A stretch of DNA of 47,679 nt from a virus: positions 1-47,679 of the IMG/VR virus record IMGVR_UViG_3300025435_000031; one strand, written 5' to 3'. The notes under the pieces are model-generated. The model was not told where the DNA came from and ran no database searches. It saw only the letters and a program-made list of their open reading frames with translations. Position numbers and translations under genes: made by a program. Shown in pieces: positions 4,301 to 11,295 of this stretch (the stretch's first letter is position 1; every line of letters starts with the position of its first letter).

Positions 4301-4961
4301 TCAGAAGATGCTCGATGATATGCGTGAGTGGATGCGTAATTATATTAATAACACGTGCATATATCGTGTGCAACCTGGTGAACTAGAACTTCCAAGTAAA
4401 CATCCAGATTATACGTATGCATGGCAAATTTATCTACGTCGTGGTTTGTTCAATAGTAAATTCCAATCAATATTAGGTGTGTTGTTTTGGGATATGTTTC
4501 AAGCCAAATTTAAGACAGCTAAATTTCAAATTGCTGGATTGGAAACTGGTGCAACACCAATATTATCAGCAATCGTTAATGCAGCAAGTCTTTTTGATAT
4601 TGAGTGTAATGCATTCAGCATTAGAGCTGACCGCAAGAAGTATGGGTTGTTTAATAGATTTGAAGGAATTGTTGATTATAAAACACCTGTGCTAATTGTG
4701 GATGACATTAGCAACTCAAAAGATACAATCCACAAAGCACTGTTTTACTGCACAAGTGGTGGGTTGCAGGTTGTACGCGATGCTTTCACGATTATTAACA
4801 AAGATCCAACAAACATTGAACAGGACAAGTACGTTGGCAACCAACTCAACGTAAAGAGTATATTCTCGCTCAATGATTTTGACCTCATGTATAATGATTA
4901 TATTGCAAAAAATGGAAATATAAATCTTGTTGACTTTGAGCGTGAAAGAGGCGATAAATAA
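4290..4961 (+). CDS. Orotate-phosphoribosyltransferase-like PRTase
   Basis: A 223-residue type I phosphoribosyltransferase. The PRPP-binding loop is visible at residues 134-146 (VLIVDDISNSKDT), preceded by GLETGATP at 83-90 and SIRADRKKYG at 110-119, the layout seen in orotate phosphoribosyltransferase (PyrE). The first 70 residues are extra helices. The family joins a base to PRPP; the substrate here is not proven, and pyrimidine salvage for phage DNA synthesis is an inference. The start at 4290 has GGAGAAG at 4280-4286 and overlaps the preceding gene. The stop codon lies inside the promoter motif of the tmRNA that follows. Confidence 0.7.
   Translation: MEIDQKMLDDMREWMRNYINNTCIYRVQPGELELPSKHPDYTYAWQIYLRRGLFNSKFQSILGVLFWDMFQAKFKTAKFQIAGLETGATPILSAIVNAASLFDIECNAFSIRADRKKYGLFNRFEGIVDYKTPVLIVDDISNSKDTIHKALFYCTSGGLQVVRDAFTIINKDPTNIEQDKYVGNQLNVKSIFSLNDFDLMYNDYIAKNGNINLVDFERERGDK
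4930..4960 (+). promoter_or_regulatory. Promoter for the tmRNA, with overlapping late-type motif
   Basis: TTGACT at 4930-4935, a 17-bp spacer and GATAAA at 4953-4958 give a sigma70-like promoter with the same TGTTGACT context as the other promoters. The -10 region also reads GATAAATA (4953-4960), the late-promoter form used elsewhere in this genome. The expected transcription start is near 4965. Confidence 0.5.
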
Positions 4962-4964
4962 TAT

Positions 4965-5185
4965 TGCTGAGGTTGCTGACGTAAGTAGAATAGATGAACT
5001 GGACACGAGGGCAGTACTCGTCCGGTCCACCATTTATGGGCCGGAAATAGGATCGACAGGCATAGTAAAGACTGTACCGAGACCAAAAGCAAACGTATTA
5101 GATGCAAACGATAATGCACCTATCTCTCATGCACTAGCTGCCTGAGAATGAGCTCGGTGGGGAGCTTGGAAACAGAATCCCCACC
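4965..5185 (+). ncRNA. ssrA: Circularly permuted two-piece tmRNA
   Basis: The acceptor piece comes first and ends in CCGGTCC-A-CCA (5022-5032). Five bases later the coding piece starts with GGGCCGG (5038-5044). These pair as a 7-bp acceptor stem with a G-U at the third pair, the alanine identity position. A perfect 5-bp T stem (ACGAG 5005-5009 / CTCGT 5017-5021) with a 7-nt loop abuts the acceptor strand exactly as in tRNA-like domains. The 5' piece continues with AGGATCGACAGGC, matching the tmRNA GGATTCGAC(A/G)GG element, and then the tag frame at 5104-5145. Acceptor-before-tag order is the permuted type of alphaproteobacteria. The function is rescue of stalled ribosomes with SmpB. The T loop (GGCAGTA) departs from TTCRA. 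I could not resolve the pseudoknots or P2 by eye, and the outer ends are estimates. Confidence 0.85.
5104..5145 (+). other. tmRNA tag reading frame (ANDNAPISHALAA)
   Basis: Starting at a GCA resume codon, the frame encodes ANDNAPISHALAA and then TGA. ANDN at the start and ALAA at the end are the hallmarks of alphaproteobacterial proteolysis tags recognised by ClpXP. The frame is continuous upstream to 4927, but that part is RNA structure, not protein. Confidence 0.85.
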
Positions 5186-5197
5186 ACATTTTTTTTT
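5156..5197 (+). terminator. Rho-independent terminator after the tmRNA
   Basis: GGTGGGG (5156-5162) pairs with CCCCACC (5179-5185) as a 7-bp GC-rich stem, followed by ACA and nine T residues (5189-5197). It ends the tmRNA transcript and probably sets the 3' end of the coding piece before trimming. Confidence 0.8.
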
Positions 5198-5206
5198 GAG
5201 GAACAT

Positions 5207-5284
5207 ATGGTTTTAATATCTACCACATTCTTTGTAATTGTAGGTTATTTGATATTATCAGAAATCATGGAACAGGTCCCTTAG
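5207..5284 (+). CDS. Possible 25-aa membrane peptide
   Basis: A very short frame after the terminator: MVLISTTFFVIVGYLILSEI followed by five more residues. Almost the whole peptide is one hydrophobic segment, and GAGGA at 5198-5202 provides a ribosome binding site 4 nt before the ATG. The stop codon falls in the tRNA-like fragment. No family is recognised, and a chance ORF is possible. Confidence 0.35.
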   Translation: MVLISTTFFVIVGYLILSEIMEQVP

Positions 5285-5295
5285 CTCAGCTGGAT
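5275..5295 (+). pseudogene. tRNA 5' fragment (acceptor strand plus half D-arm)
   Basis: GGTCCCT-TA-GCTC-AGCTGGAT is the first 21 bases of a normal tRNA (7-nt acceptor strand, U8-A9, D stem, D loop with GG). The tRNA sequence stops at 5295, exactly where TATAAATA begins. No matching acceptor 3' strand (AGGGACC) occurs nearby. It is best read as a tRNA gene truncated when the downstream endonuclease gene arrived. Confidence 0.65.
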
Positions 5296-5303
5296 TATAA
5301 ATA
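5296..5303 (+). promoter_or_regulatory. T4-type late promoter TATAAATA
   Basis: An exact match to the T4 late consensus TATAAATA. The start site would fall about 6 nt beyond the motif, near 5309, which is immediately downstream of the 5' arm of the hairpin at 5302-5332. Confidence 0.6.
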
Positions 5304-5333: not shown

Positions 5334-5750
5334 ATGAATACAAGAGATATAGGTAAATTTGGTGAGCTTGTTGCTATGAAAGAATTATCAAAAATTGGAT
5401 ACGATATTTTACTACCAACATCAGATCATTTACCATTTGATTTTGTTGCTTATAAAAATTCAATGCTATTTAAAATTCAAGTAAAAACAAGAAGTAAGAC
5501 AAACGGTGTTTTATCTTTCAAACTATCAAAAAACCCATATCCAAGATACAACGAAACAGTTCAAGGGCGTAAATATAGTGAACAAGATTTTGATTGGTTG
5601 TTGCTTGTTGACATAGAAACTGAATCAGTTTATAAGTTTACATGGGAAGATTTGATTGATAAAGAATCAATTAATCTAAGAATAGAAAAAACAAAAAACA
5701 ATCAAACAAAAGGCGTTTGGATAGCAGAAAATTATGCGCTCGTAGCTTAA
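5334..5750 (+). CDS. PD-(D/E)XK homing-endonuclease-like protein (I-Ssp6803I type)
   Basis: A 138-residue small nuclease. The N-terminus reads GKFGELVAMKEL with Glu11, then LPFDFVA with Asp36, and FKIQVKTRS with Gln49 and Lys51. This E...D...QxK pattern fits the restriction-fold homing endonuclease I-Ssp6803I (PDDEXK_5 family), which lives in a tRNA-fMet intron. Length is also close to that family. It lies between a truncated tRNA and an intact tRNA-Arg, and its last five codons and stop are inside the tRNA-Arg gene. There is no sign of intron structure, so it appears to be a free-standing mobile gene. Expression is probably late only (hairpin and TATAAATA upstream). A DUF4365-like nuclease of another role is the main alternative. 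Confidence 0.7.
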   Translation: MNTRDIGKFGELVAMKELSKIGYDILLPTSDHLPFDFVAYKNSMLFKIQVKTRSKTNGVLSFKLSKNPYPRYNETVQGRKYSEQDFDWLLLVDIETESVYKFTWEDLIDKESINLRIEKTKNNQTKGVWIAENYALVA

Positions 5751-5812
5751 CAGGAAAAAGCAACGGTCTTCTAAACCGTAGAGTACAGGTTCGAGTCCTG
5801 TCGAGCGCGCCA
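5736..5812 (+). tRNA. tRNA-Arg (UCU anticodon)
   Basis: Acceptor GCGCTCG (5736-5742) pairs with CGAGCGC (5802-5808), then G and encoded CCA (5810-5812). The D stem is GCTT/AAGC. The anticodon stem ACGGT/ACCGT holds the loop CTTCTAA with anticodon TCT, reading AGA. The T arm is ACAGG-TTCGAGT-CCTGT. The 5' 15 nt overlap the 3' end of the endonuclease gene. Confidence 0.93.
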
Positions 5813-6112: not shown

Positions 6113-6295
6113 ATGTCATTACAATTTGTTGAACCACCATTTCCATACATTGACGAAACGATCAAGCAGCTTGAAAAAGAACTTGATCAAGCTTTGTGGA
6201 ATGAAGACCATACGCGTGCTCAACGTATCCGTTCACAAATACAAACATATGAAATCAAGTTATCGCTTGGCGAACAGTTTGTGGTATCGTTCTGA
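6113..6295 (+). CDS. Hypothetical protein, 60 aa
   Basis: A small acidic helical protein (MSLQFVEPPFPYIDETIKQL...), not recognised. The start at 6113 has GGAG at 6103-6106; an in-frame ATG at 6101 is possible but would overlap that site. Its stop overlaps the gp33 start (TGATG), so it heads the gp33-gp59 cluster. The central helix with Glu/Lys/Arg repeats could mediate protein contacts, but no function can be assigned. Confidence 0.55.
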   Translation: MSLQFVEPPFPYIDETIKQLEKELDQALWNEDHTRAQRIRSQIQTYEIKLSLGEQFVVSF

Positions 6296-6525
6296 TGAAA
6301 TCATTCTTTGATACAAACAAGTTCATTGCTCAAATCAATGAGATGTGCTCGGGTGAGAGCATTGAATACATCGATGCTGTTATTGTTTGGTGTGAAAGAA
6401 ACAATATTGAGCTTGAGTTTATTGCAAGCGTAATTAAGAAGGATCCTTTGATTAAGTCAAAGATCCAATCAGAAGCTGAACAACTTAATTTTATTAAACC
6501 AGTAGGATCAAGGTTGCCGATATGA
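6295..6525 (+). CDS. 33: gp33-like late-transcription accessory protein
   Basis: A 76-residue protein with the core YIDAVIVWCERNNIELE...LIKSKIQSEAEQLNFI, which resembles the late-promoter accessory proteins annotated in T4-like marine phages. In T4, gp33 bridges RNA polymerase to the sliding clamp gp45 and co-activates late transcription with gp55. The order gp33-gp59-gp32 is the same as in T4, which strengthens the call. It is shorter than T4 gp33 (112 aa). It is coupled to its upstream neighbour and overlaps the next gene by 4 nt. Its partner promoters would be the NATAAATA sites in this window. Confidence 0.65.
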   Translation: MKSFFDTNKFIAQINEMCSGESIEYIDAVIVWCERNNIELEFIASVIKKDPLIKSKIQSEAEQLNFIKPVGSRLPI

Positions 6526-6815
6526 TTGCTAAAGTAAAAGAAGTTGAAATAGATCTTAGTGATTTTGACGATTGGGATTTGCAAGAAGAATTAGAATCTC
6601 GTGGGTATAGAATTGATCCACAGTTGGATGATTTTGAAGATTGGGAAATCTACGAAGAATTTGAAAATCGTAAACTTGATAAACAATCTGAACATTTAGA
6701 AGACTCAATCTTTGCACTTTATGAAGAATGGTTAGCAGATGAAGGCGACAACGACCGTCGATTTGATAAAGCACTAAGAGCATTCTTCTCAAAACACTTA
6801 GATAAGAATTTATGA
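6522..6815 (+). CDS. Hypothetical acidic protein with an internal duplication
   Basis: A 97-residue, strongly acidic protein. Two similar motifs follow each other: LSDFDDWDLQEELESRGY (about 12-29) and LDDFEDWEIYEEFENRK (about 36-52), that is L-x-D-F-(D/E)-D-W-(D/E)-(L/I)-x-E-E. The second half is helical and less acidic. No known family is recognised; the motif could be a small docking helix. It overlaps gp33 upstream and gp59 downstream (ATGATG), so all three genes are translationally coupled. Confidence 0.55.
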   Translation: MIAKVKEVEIDLSDFDDWDLQEELESRGYRIDPQLDDFEDWEIYEEFENRKLDKQSEHLEDSIFALYEEWLADEGDNDRRFDKALRAFFSKHLDKNL

Positions 6816-7396
6816 TGTCAGCATTTGAATGTTACCAGCAGTACATTGCGCTAAAGAACCACTTTAGCCAGCCATCATATGATTACTTTAAATACAATGG
6901 CAAGACAAACGCAACAAAGTCTAAATTCGATGTAAGGAAAGATCGCTTGTTCTTTGAAAGGTTGGCTAAACATAAAGATCCAATTGGGTTTCTTGTTGCT
7001 AATCTTGCAGAAAACAACAAAGCATGGATTCGTGATATTGCATACAGCGAGCAAGCAAACGAACTATATGCTCAACAGCAAAAGAGAATCCAATCACTTT
7101 CGTACTTGTTTGAAAACGAGCTAAACAAGCTAAACAAAGACTTTCCAACAAACTTTGAAATCCATAACAATAAGCAACCACAGCTTGTTAAGCTATACCT
7201 CCAAAAAGAGATATCACTTGAGACTCTTGCAATCATAATTGATCTAACAAAGTGTATTGCGTTCTTTGACAAGGAACTTGAATATGATCCTAGTTGGAAT
7301 CCTCTTTCAATTAAGGTCAAGAAATATACACCTTTTATTCAGTATGATAAGAAGAAGTTCAAAAAGATAATTGTTGACAAATTCAAGTTAGGGTGA
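6812..7396 (+). CDS. 59: gp59-like loader of the replicative helicase
   Basis: A 194-residue protein resembling T4 gp59 (217 aa), which binds forked DNA and gp32 and loads the gp41 helicase. Visible similarities include the N-terminal Y...Y..LK.HF...YDYFKYN segment, KRKDR-like KDRLFFERLAKH, FLVANLAENNKAWIRDI (T4: NLVANQDAWIGDI) and the C-terminal W-N-x-x-S-I-K-V-K-K-Y (T4: WNNYSIKLKAY). It lies directly before gp32, as in T4. Two ATGs (6812, 6815) are adjacent, and either could be used. Confidence 0.85.
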   Translation: MMSAFECYQQYIALKNHFSQPSYDYFKYNGKTNATKSKFDVRKDRLFFERLAKHKDPIGFLVANLAENNKAWIRDIAYSEQANELYAQQQKRIQSLSYLFENELNKLNKDFPTNFEIHNNKQPQLVKLYLQKEISLETLAIIIDLTKCIAFFDKELEYDPSWNPLSIKVKKYTPFIQYDKKKFKKIIVDKFKLG

Positions 7397-7603: not shown

Positions 7604-8536
7604 ATGACATCATTTTTACAACTCAAGAAAAATTCTGGTAAGGGCTCTTTAGAAACTCTTACAGCCGAGCTTACAAAGCTCTCTGGCAAACAAACCCAAG
7701 AATCACGCACAGACGACCGCATTTGGTATCCATCAGTCGATAAGGCTGGAAATGGTTATGCTGTGATTCGTTTCCTTCCACCTCCCGAAGGTGAAGACGT
7801 TCCTTTCATTCGCATGTTTGATCATGGTTTCCAAGGTCCTACTGGCCAATGGTATATTGAGAACTCTCTCACAACACTTGGTAAGCAAGATCCTGTTAGT
7901 GAGTTGAATACAAAGCTGTGGGCTACTGGTCTTGAGTCTGATAAGGCAGTTGTTCGTAAGCAAAAGCGTAAGTTGAACTTCTACAGCAACATCTACATTA
8001 TCAAGGATGAAAACAACCCTGAGAACGAAGGTAAGGTATTCTTGTTTAAGTACGGCAAGAAGATCTTTGACAAGCTCAACGAAGCAATGCAGCCAGCTTA
8101 TCCTGATGAAGATCCTTTGAATCCATTTGATCTTTGGGAAGGTGCAGACTTCAAGTTAAAGATTCGTAACGTTGAAGGATATCGCAACTACGACAAGTCT
8201 GAGTTTGCTAAGCCATCTGCTCTTAGCGACGATGACAAGACACTCGAACGTATTTGGAAGCAGTGCCATTCACTACAGGCATTCCTTGCTCCTTCTAACT
8301 TCAAGTCTTATGATGAGTTAAAGACTCGTTTGAACCTTGTACTTGGTTTGGATACAAATGTATCTACACCAGCAAAGCAATTGGCTGCACATGAAGATCT
8401 TGATGATGAGATTCCGTGGCAGACACCCACGCCTGCAAAGGCTACACCTGCGCCAGCACAGCGTTCAGTTCCAGCATTTGATGATGACGATGATGATGGG
8501 TTGGAATTCTTCAATAAGCTAGCTAGCAAGGGTTGA
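7604..8536 (+). CDS. 32: gp32-like single-stranded DNA-binding protein
   Basis: A 310-residue protein close in length to T4 gp32 (301 aa). It has the basic N-terminus (LQLKKNSGKGS), the OB-core sequence DDRIWYPSVDKAGNGYAVIRFLP at about 37-59, the FYSNIYIIKD..NPENEGKVFLFKYGKKIF segment at 126-155, and an acidic tail (about 283-310) like the T4 C-terminal domain that recruits gp59 and polymerase. The protein coats ssDNA in replication, repair and recombination. Odd point: the zinc ligands of T4 gp32 seem lost. His74 remains, but the CPVC element reads D96-P-V-S99 and the earlier Cys is Ser. ACGGAGAT precedes the ATG, and a terminator follows directly. Confidence 0.9.
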   Translation: MTSFLQLKKNSGKGSLETLTAELTKLSGKQTQESRTDDRIWYPSVDKAGNGYAVIRFLPPPEGEDVPFIRMFDHGFQGPTGQWYIENSLTTLGKQDPVSELNTKLWATGLESDKAVVRKQKRKLNFYSNIYIIKDENNPENEGKVFLFKYGKKIFDKLNEAMQPAYPDEDPLNPFDLWEGADFKLKIRNVEGYRNYDKSEFAKPSALSDDDKTLERIWKQCHSLQAFLAPSNFKSYDELKTRLNLVLGLDTNVSTPAKQLAAHEDLDDEIPWQTPTPAKATPAPAQRSVPAFDDDDDDGLEFFNKLASKG

Positions 8537-8565: not shown

Positions 8566-11295
8566 TCAAGCTCCAATATGGAATAGCTCTTTAAATCTTG
8601 TTTTAGCATCGACTGGTTCAACATGACCAACGCTGCTTGTATGATCGGACTGCGTTGTGTTCTTTGCAGGAGCATGCTGTGTATTTTGGTTGACAGTGAT
8701 ACCCTGTCTTGCAGATCTTTGATCCATTGCATCTCTTGTAGATGCTTGTGCTAACTGTGTTCCTCTTGTTGGTGTAGAAGGTTGCATGATACCACCAAGC
8801 ATTCCACCAGCGAGAGATCCAAGCATTCCACCAGCACGACCACCTAGCATTCCGCCAAGCATGCCTCCAATACCAGCAAGACCACCGCCACCACCCATGG
8901 GCATACCGCCCATACCACCCATTCCTCCAGCCATACCTTGGCCGCCCATTCCTCCGCTAGGTATACCGCCTCCAGCACCACCAGCAGCACCTACAGGATC
9001 GTTAGATACTTTATCACCACCTGATCCACCTGCAGGACCACCTCCACCAGAAGCAGCGCCTCCCTGCACTTCACCAGAAGCAACTTGTACACCACGTGGA
9101 ATATCATATGAACCCTGCTCGCCTTTTGCAGCTGAGAAGTGCATTGGATCTTTAACAGACTTCCAATTCATACCCCATCCAAGGCCATGCTTTGCAGCAA
9201 GTGCACCAGTTTCAGGAGGAAGATCGGTTTGTGTTGATTTGTTTGGATTTTGCCCAGGATTGATATCAATAGCAGCACCCATAGCGTGGTAAGATTTTAC
9301 CTTTGGGTTGTTTACGTTTGCACGATCAGCATAGCCACCAATGCTATTGATCTTATAACCTGTGGCTTCAAGATCATCGATGAATCCTTGGAAGTTGGCT
9401 GCATAAGCTGCGCCAACTTGAGCTGTCTTACCGCTTTTTGTTTTGATTGTTGTCATCGCAGGTTTCATAGCAGCTTCACCAGCTGGACCTCCACCCTGAC
9501 CAGCTGCAATCTTTTGTCCTGCAGATGGTGTAGCAGGTCCGCCAAGTGCTGCTTTTGCAGCTTCTGCTTTTGTTGGTCCGCTTCCAGCAGCTGGTGTTCC
9601 TACAACTTGTGTAGCTTGCTGTCCTAAATTACCAGTATCACTTGCAGCAGCTGCTAATTGAGTTGCAGCTTTATTTTGAGCTGGTTGTTCTGTGCCACCA
9701 CCTCTAGGACCAGCAGGTGCGGCTGATGGTGCAGCTGCTGTTTCTTCGCCAGCAGGTTTAATTTCAGCACCAGCATACTGGTTAGCAGCAGCAACTCTTT
9801 GAGCTCTTGCTGCACCAGAAGATCTTTCGTAGTATTGATCGACAATCGAAGCTGCTTCTGCAGCATCTTTTGCCATTCTTAATTTTGCACCAGCTTGTTT
9901 GTTATTGTTGTTGAGTTCCCAGTTAACAAATTCAAGTTGATCTTTAAATGACGAGCCTTCTAGTTCCTTGCCATACAATGATTTGAACATAGCTTGTCTA
10001 TCAGGATGCCACTGAGCAATACCAACAGCCTTGCCATTATCACCTTTACGCTTGCCAGATATAACATCGCTTGAGAAGTCACCAGATTCAATCTTAAGGT
10101 TACCAACAATACCAGCAGCTTGTTCTTTTGTCCACCCTTTAGATGTAAAGAATTGCATTGCTTCTGATGCACTTCCTGATACATTACCAATAGCACCTGT
10201 TTTTTCACTACCAGCATTGCTGTTATTACCAGCTGGTATTTGAGGAACACCAGATGATGGAGTACTGCTTGCTGATCTTCCACCACTTGGTAATGCAATA
10301 GGTGCAGATGTTTGTGCACCACCTTGCTGTGCTGCTTTGATATCAGCTGATTGTTCTGGCTTACCACCAGATGCCATGTCATAGATACCTTTACCAGCTT
10401 TTCCACCTAACCACGAACCCAACATACCACCGATGTATGTTCCAACACCAGGGAAAATTAAGCTTCCTAATACAGCACCAGCTGCTCCACCAGCCATTGC
10501 ACCACCACCAGCGGATAGTGCTTTACCAGCATTTCCAGATTCTGAGTATTCTGATACACCTTCTATCAGACCACCAAGCGCAGCTCCACCAGCTAGCTTT
10601 CCAACACCACCAATTCCTTTGATAGCAGCCCCAGCCTTACCAAGGAACCCTGTCTTTGGCGCAACTTTACCAGCTCCACTTGCAGCTCCACCCTTACCAC
10701 CACCAATGTTAGATAAAGCGTCAGCTACTTCACCAAGTACACTCTTTTCCTCACCACCTGCTTTTGAACCACCCTTTATTAGTTCTTTTAAAAGTGTGTT
10801 AGTAACTTGTTGATGAGCTACCATTTGCTTGAGAAGATCATTAGAGTTAGTAACTTGTTCTGCTACTCTTTCAGTGGCAATAATACCTTTTTCATCACCA
10901 AACTCTTTTTCTTCTTTTGGATCGTCTTTTTTCTCTTTGAGTTTTTCTAAACCAGGAAAAGCAGTTTTGAATGCATGTGTTCCAAAGTCCATAGCTGCCT
11001 TTTTGAAGGCATTCTTAATCATTGTTTCAGCAGTTTCAGGGCCTTGTTTTTCATTAGTATCAACAGTTGTTGTTGATCTTTGACTTGCCATATTTTTTTG
11101 AAACTTAAGCTCTTCTTTAGTAAGATCAATAAGTTCTTCTACGGCTTGTGTTGTTTTCTTTTGTTCTTTTAAAGCTTCTTCTTCAGCATCAGCTTGTGCT
11201 TTCAATTGAGCAGCAATAGCTTGCTGGGCAGCTGGCCCAAGCTTAGCTAAATCTTCTGGTGTAAGCCCTTGCTGTTTCTTTGAACCTTTAGCCAT
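8566..11295 (-). CDS. Tail protein with lysozyme and M15 peptidase domains; tape-measure candidate
   Basis: A 909-residue protein. Residues 1-175 are charged helices with coiled-coil character. Residues about 200-305 are Gly/Ala-rich and hydrophobic (GGAMAGGAAGAVLGSLIFPG). Residues about 376-507 form a phage tail lysozyme-like domain (AMQFFTSKGWTKEQAAGIVG, catalytic-type Glu403). After an Ala/Pro/Gly linker, residues about 615-722 form an M15 metallopeptidase with SYHAMGAAIDINPG (His670, Asp677) and DPMHF (His719). Residues 735-845 are extremely Gly/Met-rich. It follows the gp26/gp51-like and holin-like genes, the place where a tape measure usually follows its frameshifted chaperones, and coiled-coil plus membrane-like stretches suit that role. 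This gp5 lacks a lysozyme domain, so this protein likely supplies peptidoglycan cutting during entry. Its start overlaps the upstream stop by one base. Confidence 0.75.
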   Translation of the reverse strand: MAKGSKKQQGLTPEDLAKLGPAAQQAIAAQLKAQADAEEEALKEQKKTTQAVEELIDLTKEELKFQKNMASQRSTTTVDTNEKQGPETAETMIKNAFKKAAMDFGTHAFKTAFPGLEKLKEKKDDPKEEKEFGDEKGIIATERVAEQVTNSNDLLKQMVAHQQVTNTLLKELIKGGSKAGGEEKSVLGEVADALSNIGGGKGGAASGAGKVAPKTGFLGKAGAAIKGIGGVGKLAGGAALGGLIEGVSEYSESGNAGKALSAGGGAMAGGAAGAVLGSLIFPGVGTYIGGMLGSWLGGKAGKGIYDMASGGKPEQSADIKAAQQGGAQTSAPIALPSGGRSASSTPSSGVPQIPAGNNSNAGSEKTGAIGNVSGSASEAMQFFTSKGWTKEQAAGIVGNLKIESGDFSSDVISGKRKGDNGKAVGIAQWHPDRQAMFKSLYGKELEGSSFKDQLEFVNWELNNNNKQAGAKLRMAKDAAEAASIVDQYYERSSGAARAQRVAAANQYAGAEIKPAGEETAAAPSAAPAGPRGGGTEQPAQNKAATQLAAAASDTGNLGQQATQVVGTPAAGSGPTKAEAAKAALGGPATPSAGQKIAAGQGGGPAGEAAMKPAMTTIKTKSGKTAQVGAAYAANFQGFIDDLEATGYKINSIGGYADRANVNNPKVKSYHAMGAAIDINPGQNPNKSTQTDLPPETGALAAKHGLGWGMNWKSVKDPMHFSAAKGEQGSYDIPRGVQVASGEVQGGAASGGGGPAGGSGGDKVSNDPVGAAGGAGGGIPSGGMGGQGMAGGMGGMGGMPMGGGGGLAGIGGMLGGMLGGRAGGMLGSLAGGMLGGIMQPSTPTRGTQLAQASTRDAMDQRSARQGITVNQNTQHAPAKNTTQSDHTSSVGHVEPVDAKTRFKELFHIGA

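Follow-up and report, generated by a model that had tools for sequence, protein, structure and literature searches.

Two-piece tmRNAs encoded by circularly permuted genes are already known from phages. Buchholz et al. 2022 (PMC9004378) described the tmRNA of the Methylophilales phage Melnitz as one of these and, of 133 unique phage tmRNA structures, counted 53 as two-piece, these cases being from a 2021 database; a 2025 tmRNA database contains 79 phage sequences (PMC11915505). An early-use role in the recycling of host proteins was proposed for the Melnitz molecule, and an early promoter is the only one named for it (PMC9004378). In RB49, S-PM2 and Syn9, T4-like phages without MotA, transcription of the same gene can begin at an early promoter and at a late one (PMC2984593).

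The 47.7-kb IMG/VR fragment analyzed here at its full length (the window) comes from a T4-like phage and carries an alpha-type tmRNA gene that is circularly permuted. What appears to be new is that this tmRNA, like those of relatives including Melnitz, is preceded by a promoter in which an early element of host type and the phage's own late element are merged. A literature search that had most subscription journals outside its reach found no paper that connects a phage tmRNA with a late promoter.

Identification and Anatomy of the tmRNA Gene

A cmscan search matched the Rfam alpha_tmRNA model RF01849 to positions 4926-5186 (E = 1.3e-24; 94.6 bits against a cut-off of 50). The merged model tmRNA_permuted (RF04321), which is newer, matched positions 4971-5145 (E = 1.3e-16; 92.1 bits against a cut-off of 47). 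Both matches bear out the first-pass annotation, which had proposed a permuted gene whose acceptor half, with an encoded CCA, precedes the coding half and had pointed to the alpha-tmRNA model. ARAGORN reported only two tRNAs in the window and missed the tmRNA, which suggests that phage tmRNAs may be under-annotated.

All features lie on the plus strand. The acceptor piece (4965-5032; cmscan RF01849/RF04321, 5' end inferred from the promoter) holds a distal P2 strand, placed by inspection and comparison with the related contig L107, the P2 3' strand (4994-5001) and the T stem-loop (5005-5021). The 5-bp T stem, ACGAG (5005-5009) with CTCGT (5017-5021), abuts the acceptor 3' strand CCGGTCC (5022-5028), which is followed by A73 (5029) and the CCA (5030-5032). 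The T loop, GGCAGTA, fits GGCRGTA and is the commonest viral form (39/86). After the joining loop TTTAT (5033-5037), read directly from the sequence and presumed to be removed in processing, the coding piece (5038-5188; cmscan, with pairs assigned by eye and against L107) opens with the acceptor 5' strand GGGCCGG (5038-5044), which forms 7 bp with CCGGTCC including G3-U70. It continues with the D-like GGATCGAC (5050-5057), which begins the element GGATCGACAGG (5050-5060), with P2 strands at 5057-5063, 5071-5077 and 5081-5084, and with the tag reading frame (5104-5145), which runs from the resume codon GCA at 5104 to the stop TGA at 5143-5145, encodes ANDNAPISHALAA and ends in a hydrophobic degron. 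Both stems, the 5'-piece element and the tag are as first annotated. By analogy with known permuted tmRNAs, the window gene would mature into two RNA pieces.

In the minimum free energy fold, a 3' hairpin, GGTGGGG...CCCCACC, precedes a run of nine Ts (5156-5197) and is likely to be the intrinsic terminator and 3' end of the gene. Its loop contains AACAGAA (5171-5177), a motif shared by 120/122 tmRNAs of viruses and 95/97 of cells, as against 290/4284 random stretches. The tmRNA itself was correctly placed, but the unit is larger than first proposed, extending from a promoter at 4930-4960 through the 3' hairpin and T-run to 5197. In gene order, acceptor and T arms, GGATCGAC, P2, tag type and the AACAGAA hairpin, the gene resembles the alphaproteobacterial two-piece tmRNA (RF01849; Caulobacter type); unlike that type, it has a phage promoter where cells have the 5' CTATGGCGATAAAC region.

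Source Virus and Genome Context

The fragment was assigned to a T4-like myovirus on the basis of encoded gp59, gp32, gp48, gp5-like hub and baseplate wedge proteins, gp33 and a T4 baseplate protein; gp55 was not identified within the 47.7 kb. The best protein relatives among isolates share <65% identity with the window, and a nucleotide search with the window tmRNA gave no match in isolated phages; matches to Staphylococcus of ∼40 nt, outside the tmRNA body, were disregarded. Two further IMG/VR contigs, L145 and L149, are 100% identical to the window over 4.2 and 8.6 kb, respectively, the tmRNA gene included, so the gene is not an assembly accident.

Downstream of the tmRNA on the same strand lie genes for a gp33-like late-transcription coactivator (6295-6525; PF16805, E = 1.7e-15; phrog_254), a gp59-like helicase loader (6812-7396; phrog_269, E = 1.4e-50) and a gp32-like single-strand DNA-binding protein (7604-8536; phrog_224, E = 2.8e-117). 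These neighbors are conserved: across 157 fetched viral tmRNA loci, in counts limited by contig ends, same-strand downstream genes for gp33-like, gp59 and gp32 proteins were found 56, 41 and 30 times, and the order tmRNA-gp33-gp59-gp32 is common to many phage contigs and Melnitz. Between the tmRNA and gp33 genes, GGTCCCTTAGCTCAGCTGGAT (5275-5303) resembles a tRNA 5' half truncated by a late promoter with the exact motif, TATAAATA (5296-5303), which stands before a PD-(D/E)XK endonuclease gene (5334-5750; PF11645, E = 4.4e-25) whose 3' end overlaps tRNA-Arg(TCT) (5736-5812). A PDDEXK nuclease gene also lies near the Melnitz tmRNA. On the minus strand, beside a holin gene, a 909-aa protein (8566-11295) combines a phage tail lysozyme domain with an M15 peptidase domain and shows some similarity to tape measure proteins.

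The Melnitz ssrA gene (MZ577097, PMC9004378) is likewise permuted and alpha-type, lies in the same gene order and has no SmpB gene that could be found. It differs in a joining loop of ∼150 nt as against 5 nt and in a glutamine riboswitch downstream of the tmRNA, none being detected in the window by cmscan. The Melnitz precursor loop (L275 3573-3722) holds an ATG frame directed toward the acceptor strand and preceded by GGAG. Two other isolated phages, Rhizobium phage RHph_I1_18 (MN988519) and Rhodobacter phage RcSimone-Hastad (MW677525), also have permuted alpha-type tmRNAs; in RHph_I1_18 the joining loop is 6 nt (ATCTAT) and the fused promoter was not found. These two genes (L276 3467-3660 and L277 2498-2785, respectively) are not annotated as tmRNA in their records. 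The host of the window virus is probably alphaproteobacterial. The tmRNA, initially put forward as the best host clue in the window, must be used with caution for this purpose because Melnitz, with its alphaproteobacterial-type tmRNA, infects OM43.

Covariation among Viral Relatives

A degenerate pattern recovered at least 119 viral loci. Every acceptor stem position is paired in 86/86 distinct viral sequences, compared with shuffled means of 41-82 (of 86) for positions 4-7, and these free positions show GC, CG, AT and TA alternatives. The G3-U70 pair is invariant, though position 3 was left free in the first scan. The T stem is paired in 83-86/86 sequences, with positions 1-2 at 83-84/86 compared with a shuffled mean of ∼45, and proximal P2 pairs 1 and 2 are each formed in 76/79. 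Judged from these sequences, the compensatory changes in the acceptor and T stems are real RNA covariation. Compensatory pairing in related phages, on which the first-pass annotation had staked its reading, is thus present.

In all 81 distinct viral tmRNAs for which a tag was called, it ends in xAA, an ending of this type having formed part of the search rule, and in 68 of them in LAA; across phages the LAA end is intact and the middle divergent. Unusually long tags of 29-31 aa (e.g. ANDNALSNVTFVDFSAPVTAVNEDFALAA) occur in the viral tmRNAs of L033, L038, L045, L058 and L067.

The joining loop was confirmed in length and position, but the special shortness first attributed to it was not. Loops of 0-12 nt were found in 53 viral stretches and in at least 117 cellular stretches, nearly all labelled alphaproteobacterial or pelagibacterial, and the acceptor stem is fully paired in 116 of the 117 cellular stretches listed; the exception, L185 (Burkholderiales), is presumably a chance match. 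At least 116 cellular genes, nearly all alphaproteobacterial, have loops of 2-12 nt, and the TTTAT loop recurs unchanged in three of them (L158, L176 and L246). The short loop as a phage novelty was therefore rejected, being common in cellular alphaproteobacteria. A U directly precedes the predicted cut in 54/70 viral and 49/87 cellular distinct loops, which would be compatible with the leader preference of RNase P.

P2 and the Apparent Absence of PK1

Most tmRNAs contain the pseudoknot PK1. The alpha PK1 core pattern was recognized in 80/107 cellular but in only 1/132 viral sequences, and clear pseudoknots of other types occur in some phages, for example L029. The distance from GGATCGAC to the resume codon is 46 nt in the window compared with mostly 62-67 nt in cells, and only 27-28 nt in 13 viral relatives. 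Inspection of the window gave an extended P2 pairing (4994-4996/5061-5063, 4981-4986/5071-5077 and 4971-4974/5081-5084), the last element of which is also seen in L107 as GGUC/GACC. Because cofolding of the two pieces did not reliably recover P2 in the window, the distal pairs are placed by inspection and by the comparison with L107. Since this extended P2 leaves only 19 nt between its last pair and the resume codon, PK1 is apparently absent from the window tmRNA; the best pseudoknot enumerated there comprised 3+5 weak pairs. The search for PK1 and P2 proposed at the outset thus yielded P2, with proximal pairs supported by comparison, but no recognizable PK1. Without PK1, the function of the window tmRNA may be altered.

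A Proposed Fused Early and Late Promoter

The element TTGACT-N17-GATAAATA (4930-4960) places a σ70-type −35 hexamer at 4930-4935 and a late-type −10 at 4953-4960 on the plus strand, from which transcription is predicted to start at ∼4965. It is the sole match to TTGACWN{16,18}NATAAATA in the 47.7-kb window. T4-like cyanophages use the octamer NATAAATA as their late promoter motif (PMC2984593). In the window, 9/18 of its sites lie 26-51 nt before a same-strand gene start (random expectation 1.9%, P = 1.4e-11); its plain count does not exceed that of shuffled sequence, and only the position relative to genes is significant. By this placement, NATAAATA is taken to be the late motif of the window phage; the link to gp55 is suggested by the motif.

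Upstream of many viral tmRNAs stands TATAAATA, mostly 65-71 nt before TCCACCA, and the fused element recurs at the tmRNA in relatives and in Melnitz, where it is of the same kind as in the window (TTGACA-N17-TATAAATA). A −35 matching at least 5/6 positions accompanies 33/56 distinct late-motif sites at tmRNAs compared with 4/343 other NATAAATA sites, and the spacing from TTGAC[A/T] is usually exactly 17 nt at tmRNAs. Among the TTGAC[A/T] promoters of tmRNA-bearing phage contigs, the −10 is NATAAATA in 31/32 cases at the tmRNA and NATAAT in 101/102 elsewhere. When 16 records were searched whole, 8/9 fused elements lay at the tmRNA; Melnitz has one there and one at another site. The fused promoter was found in 0/110 cellular tmRNA loci and is missing from about half of the viral ones. 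These counts come from related, and so not fully independent, phage contigs, and the promoter had been spotted prior to testing. Clustering of the 31 distinct promoters by tmRNA identity gives 15 clusters at 80% and 9 at 70%, and the spacers are largely unconserved. Because of the motif statistics, the near-confinement to tmRNA genes, the 15 clusters and the unconserved spacers, we infer that an early promoter and a late one have been fused under selection, which would give early plus late expression. In RB49, S-PM2 and Syn9 the corresponding promoters are overlapping or multiple, whereas the element described here shares one −10 and is nearly confined to the tmRNA. The window −10 begins with G and its −35 is a 5/6 match. 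As σ70 prefers T at the last −10 position, which TATAAA and GATAAA lack, the early mode may be weak.

DISCUSSION

The reading that we favor, and consider probable, is that of a working, phage-owned, two-piece alpha-type tmRNA gene that is transcribed early and late, relies on host SmpB and tags stalled chains. The anatomy, covariation, promoter statistics, synteny and lack of SmpB in the records searched were obtained here; we infer processing, charging, tagging and timing, from what is known of permuted tmRNAs and T4 late transcription, as well as the benefit, along the following lines. A single transcript would start near 4965 and end at the hairpin and T-run at 5197, and its acceptor stem would close over a 9-nt loop (ACCA plus UUUAU). 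As in known permuted tmRNA maturation, RNase P would cut before G5038 and exonucleases would trim to the CCA, leaving two RNAs held together by acceptor and P2 pairing. By way of G3-U70, the product would receive alanine. Neither the window, nor 16 related records, nor the complete genomes of Melnitz and RHph_I1_18 yielded an SmpB gene, and host SmpB is therefore presumably used; with its recruitment, ANDNAPISHALAA would be added to stalled nascent chains, host proteases would remove the tagged chains and the ribosome would be freed. Host polymerase would transcribe the gene early through the σ70 −35 and a gp55/gp33-type polymerase would do so late, such that ribosome rescue stays supplied after host transcription ends.

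An exclusively early use, in which the element is a σ70 promoter with a variant −10 and the tmRNA tags host proteins or clears host ribosomes, would account for the good −35, its 17-nt distance from the −10 and the presence of a partial TGn extended −10, and agrees with the published annotation of an early promoter in Melnitz (PMC9004378). We regard it as unlikely, since this octamer serves the window phage as its late motif and is present in full at the tmRNA in 31/32 cases, and since other σ70-type promoters of the same contigs end in NATAAT in 101/102. The apparent absence of PK1 might instead indicate a decoy that competes with host tmRNA, or a functionless, decaying capture, and a tag-less tmRNA-like RNA of phage DS6A does inhibit endogenous tmRNA in E. 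coli, as cited in PMC11915505. The tag frame and LAA end are nevertheless intact here and in many divergent phages, the stems covary, and position and promoter are conserved, all of which makes a decoy or relic quite improbable. That integrative elements often carry ssrA pieces could suggest a host piece acquired through integration at the host's ssrA, or else a chance resemblance; the gene is complete (E = 1.3e-24), has a phage promoter and fixed neighbors and belongs to a T4-like genome, and the covariance-model score together with synteny refutes both ideas, to which we give practically no weight.

A tentative history, about which we are more doubtful than about the function itself, is that T4-like alphaproteobacterial phages captured a host tmRNA, placed it behind a fused early and late promoter used almost only there, trimmed PK1 in some lineages and so kept rescue under phage control throughout infection. 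Phage tmRNAs that naturally do without PK1 would reveal which parts of tmRNA are dispensable. As to the purpose for which phages carry tmRNA, the fused early and late promoter favors ribosome rescue across the whole of infection, and its presence in the cultured phage Melnitz makes this timing directly testable.
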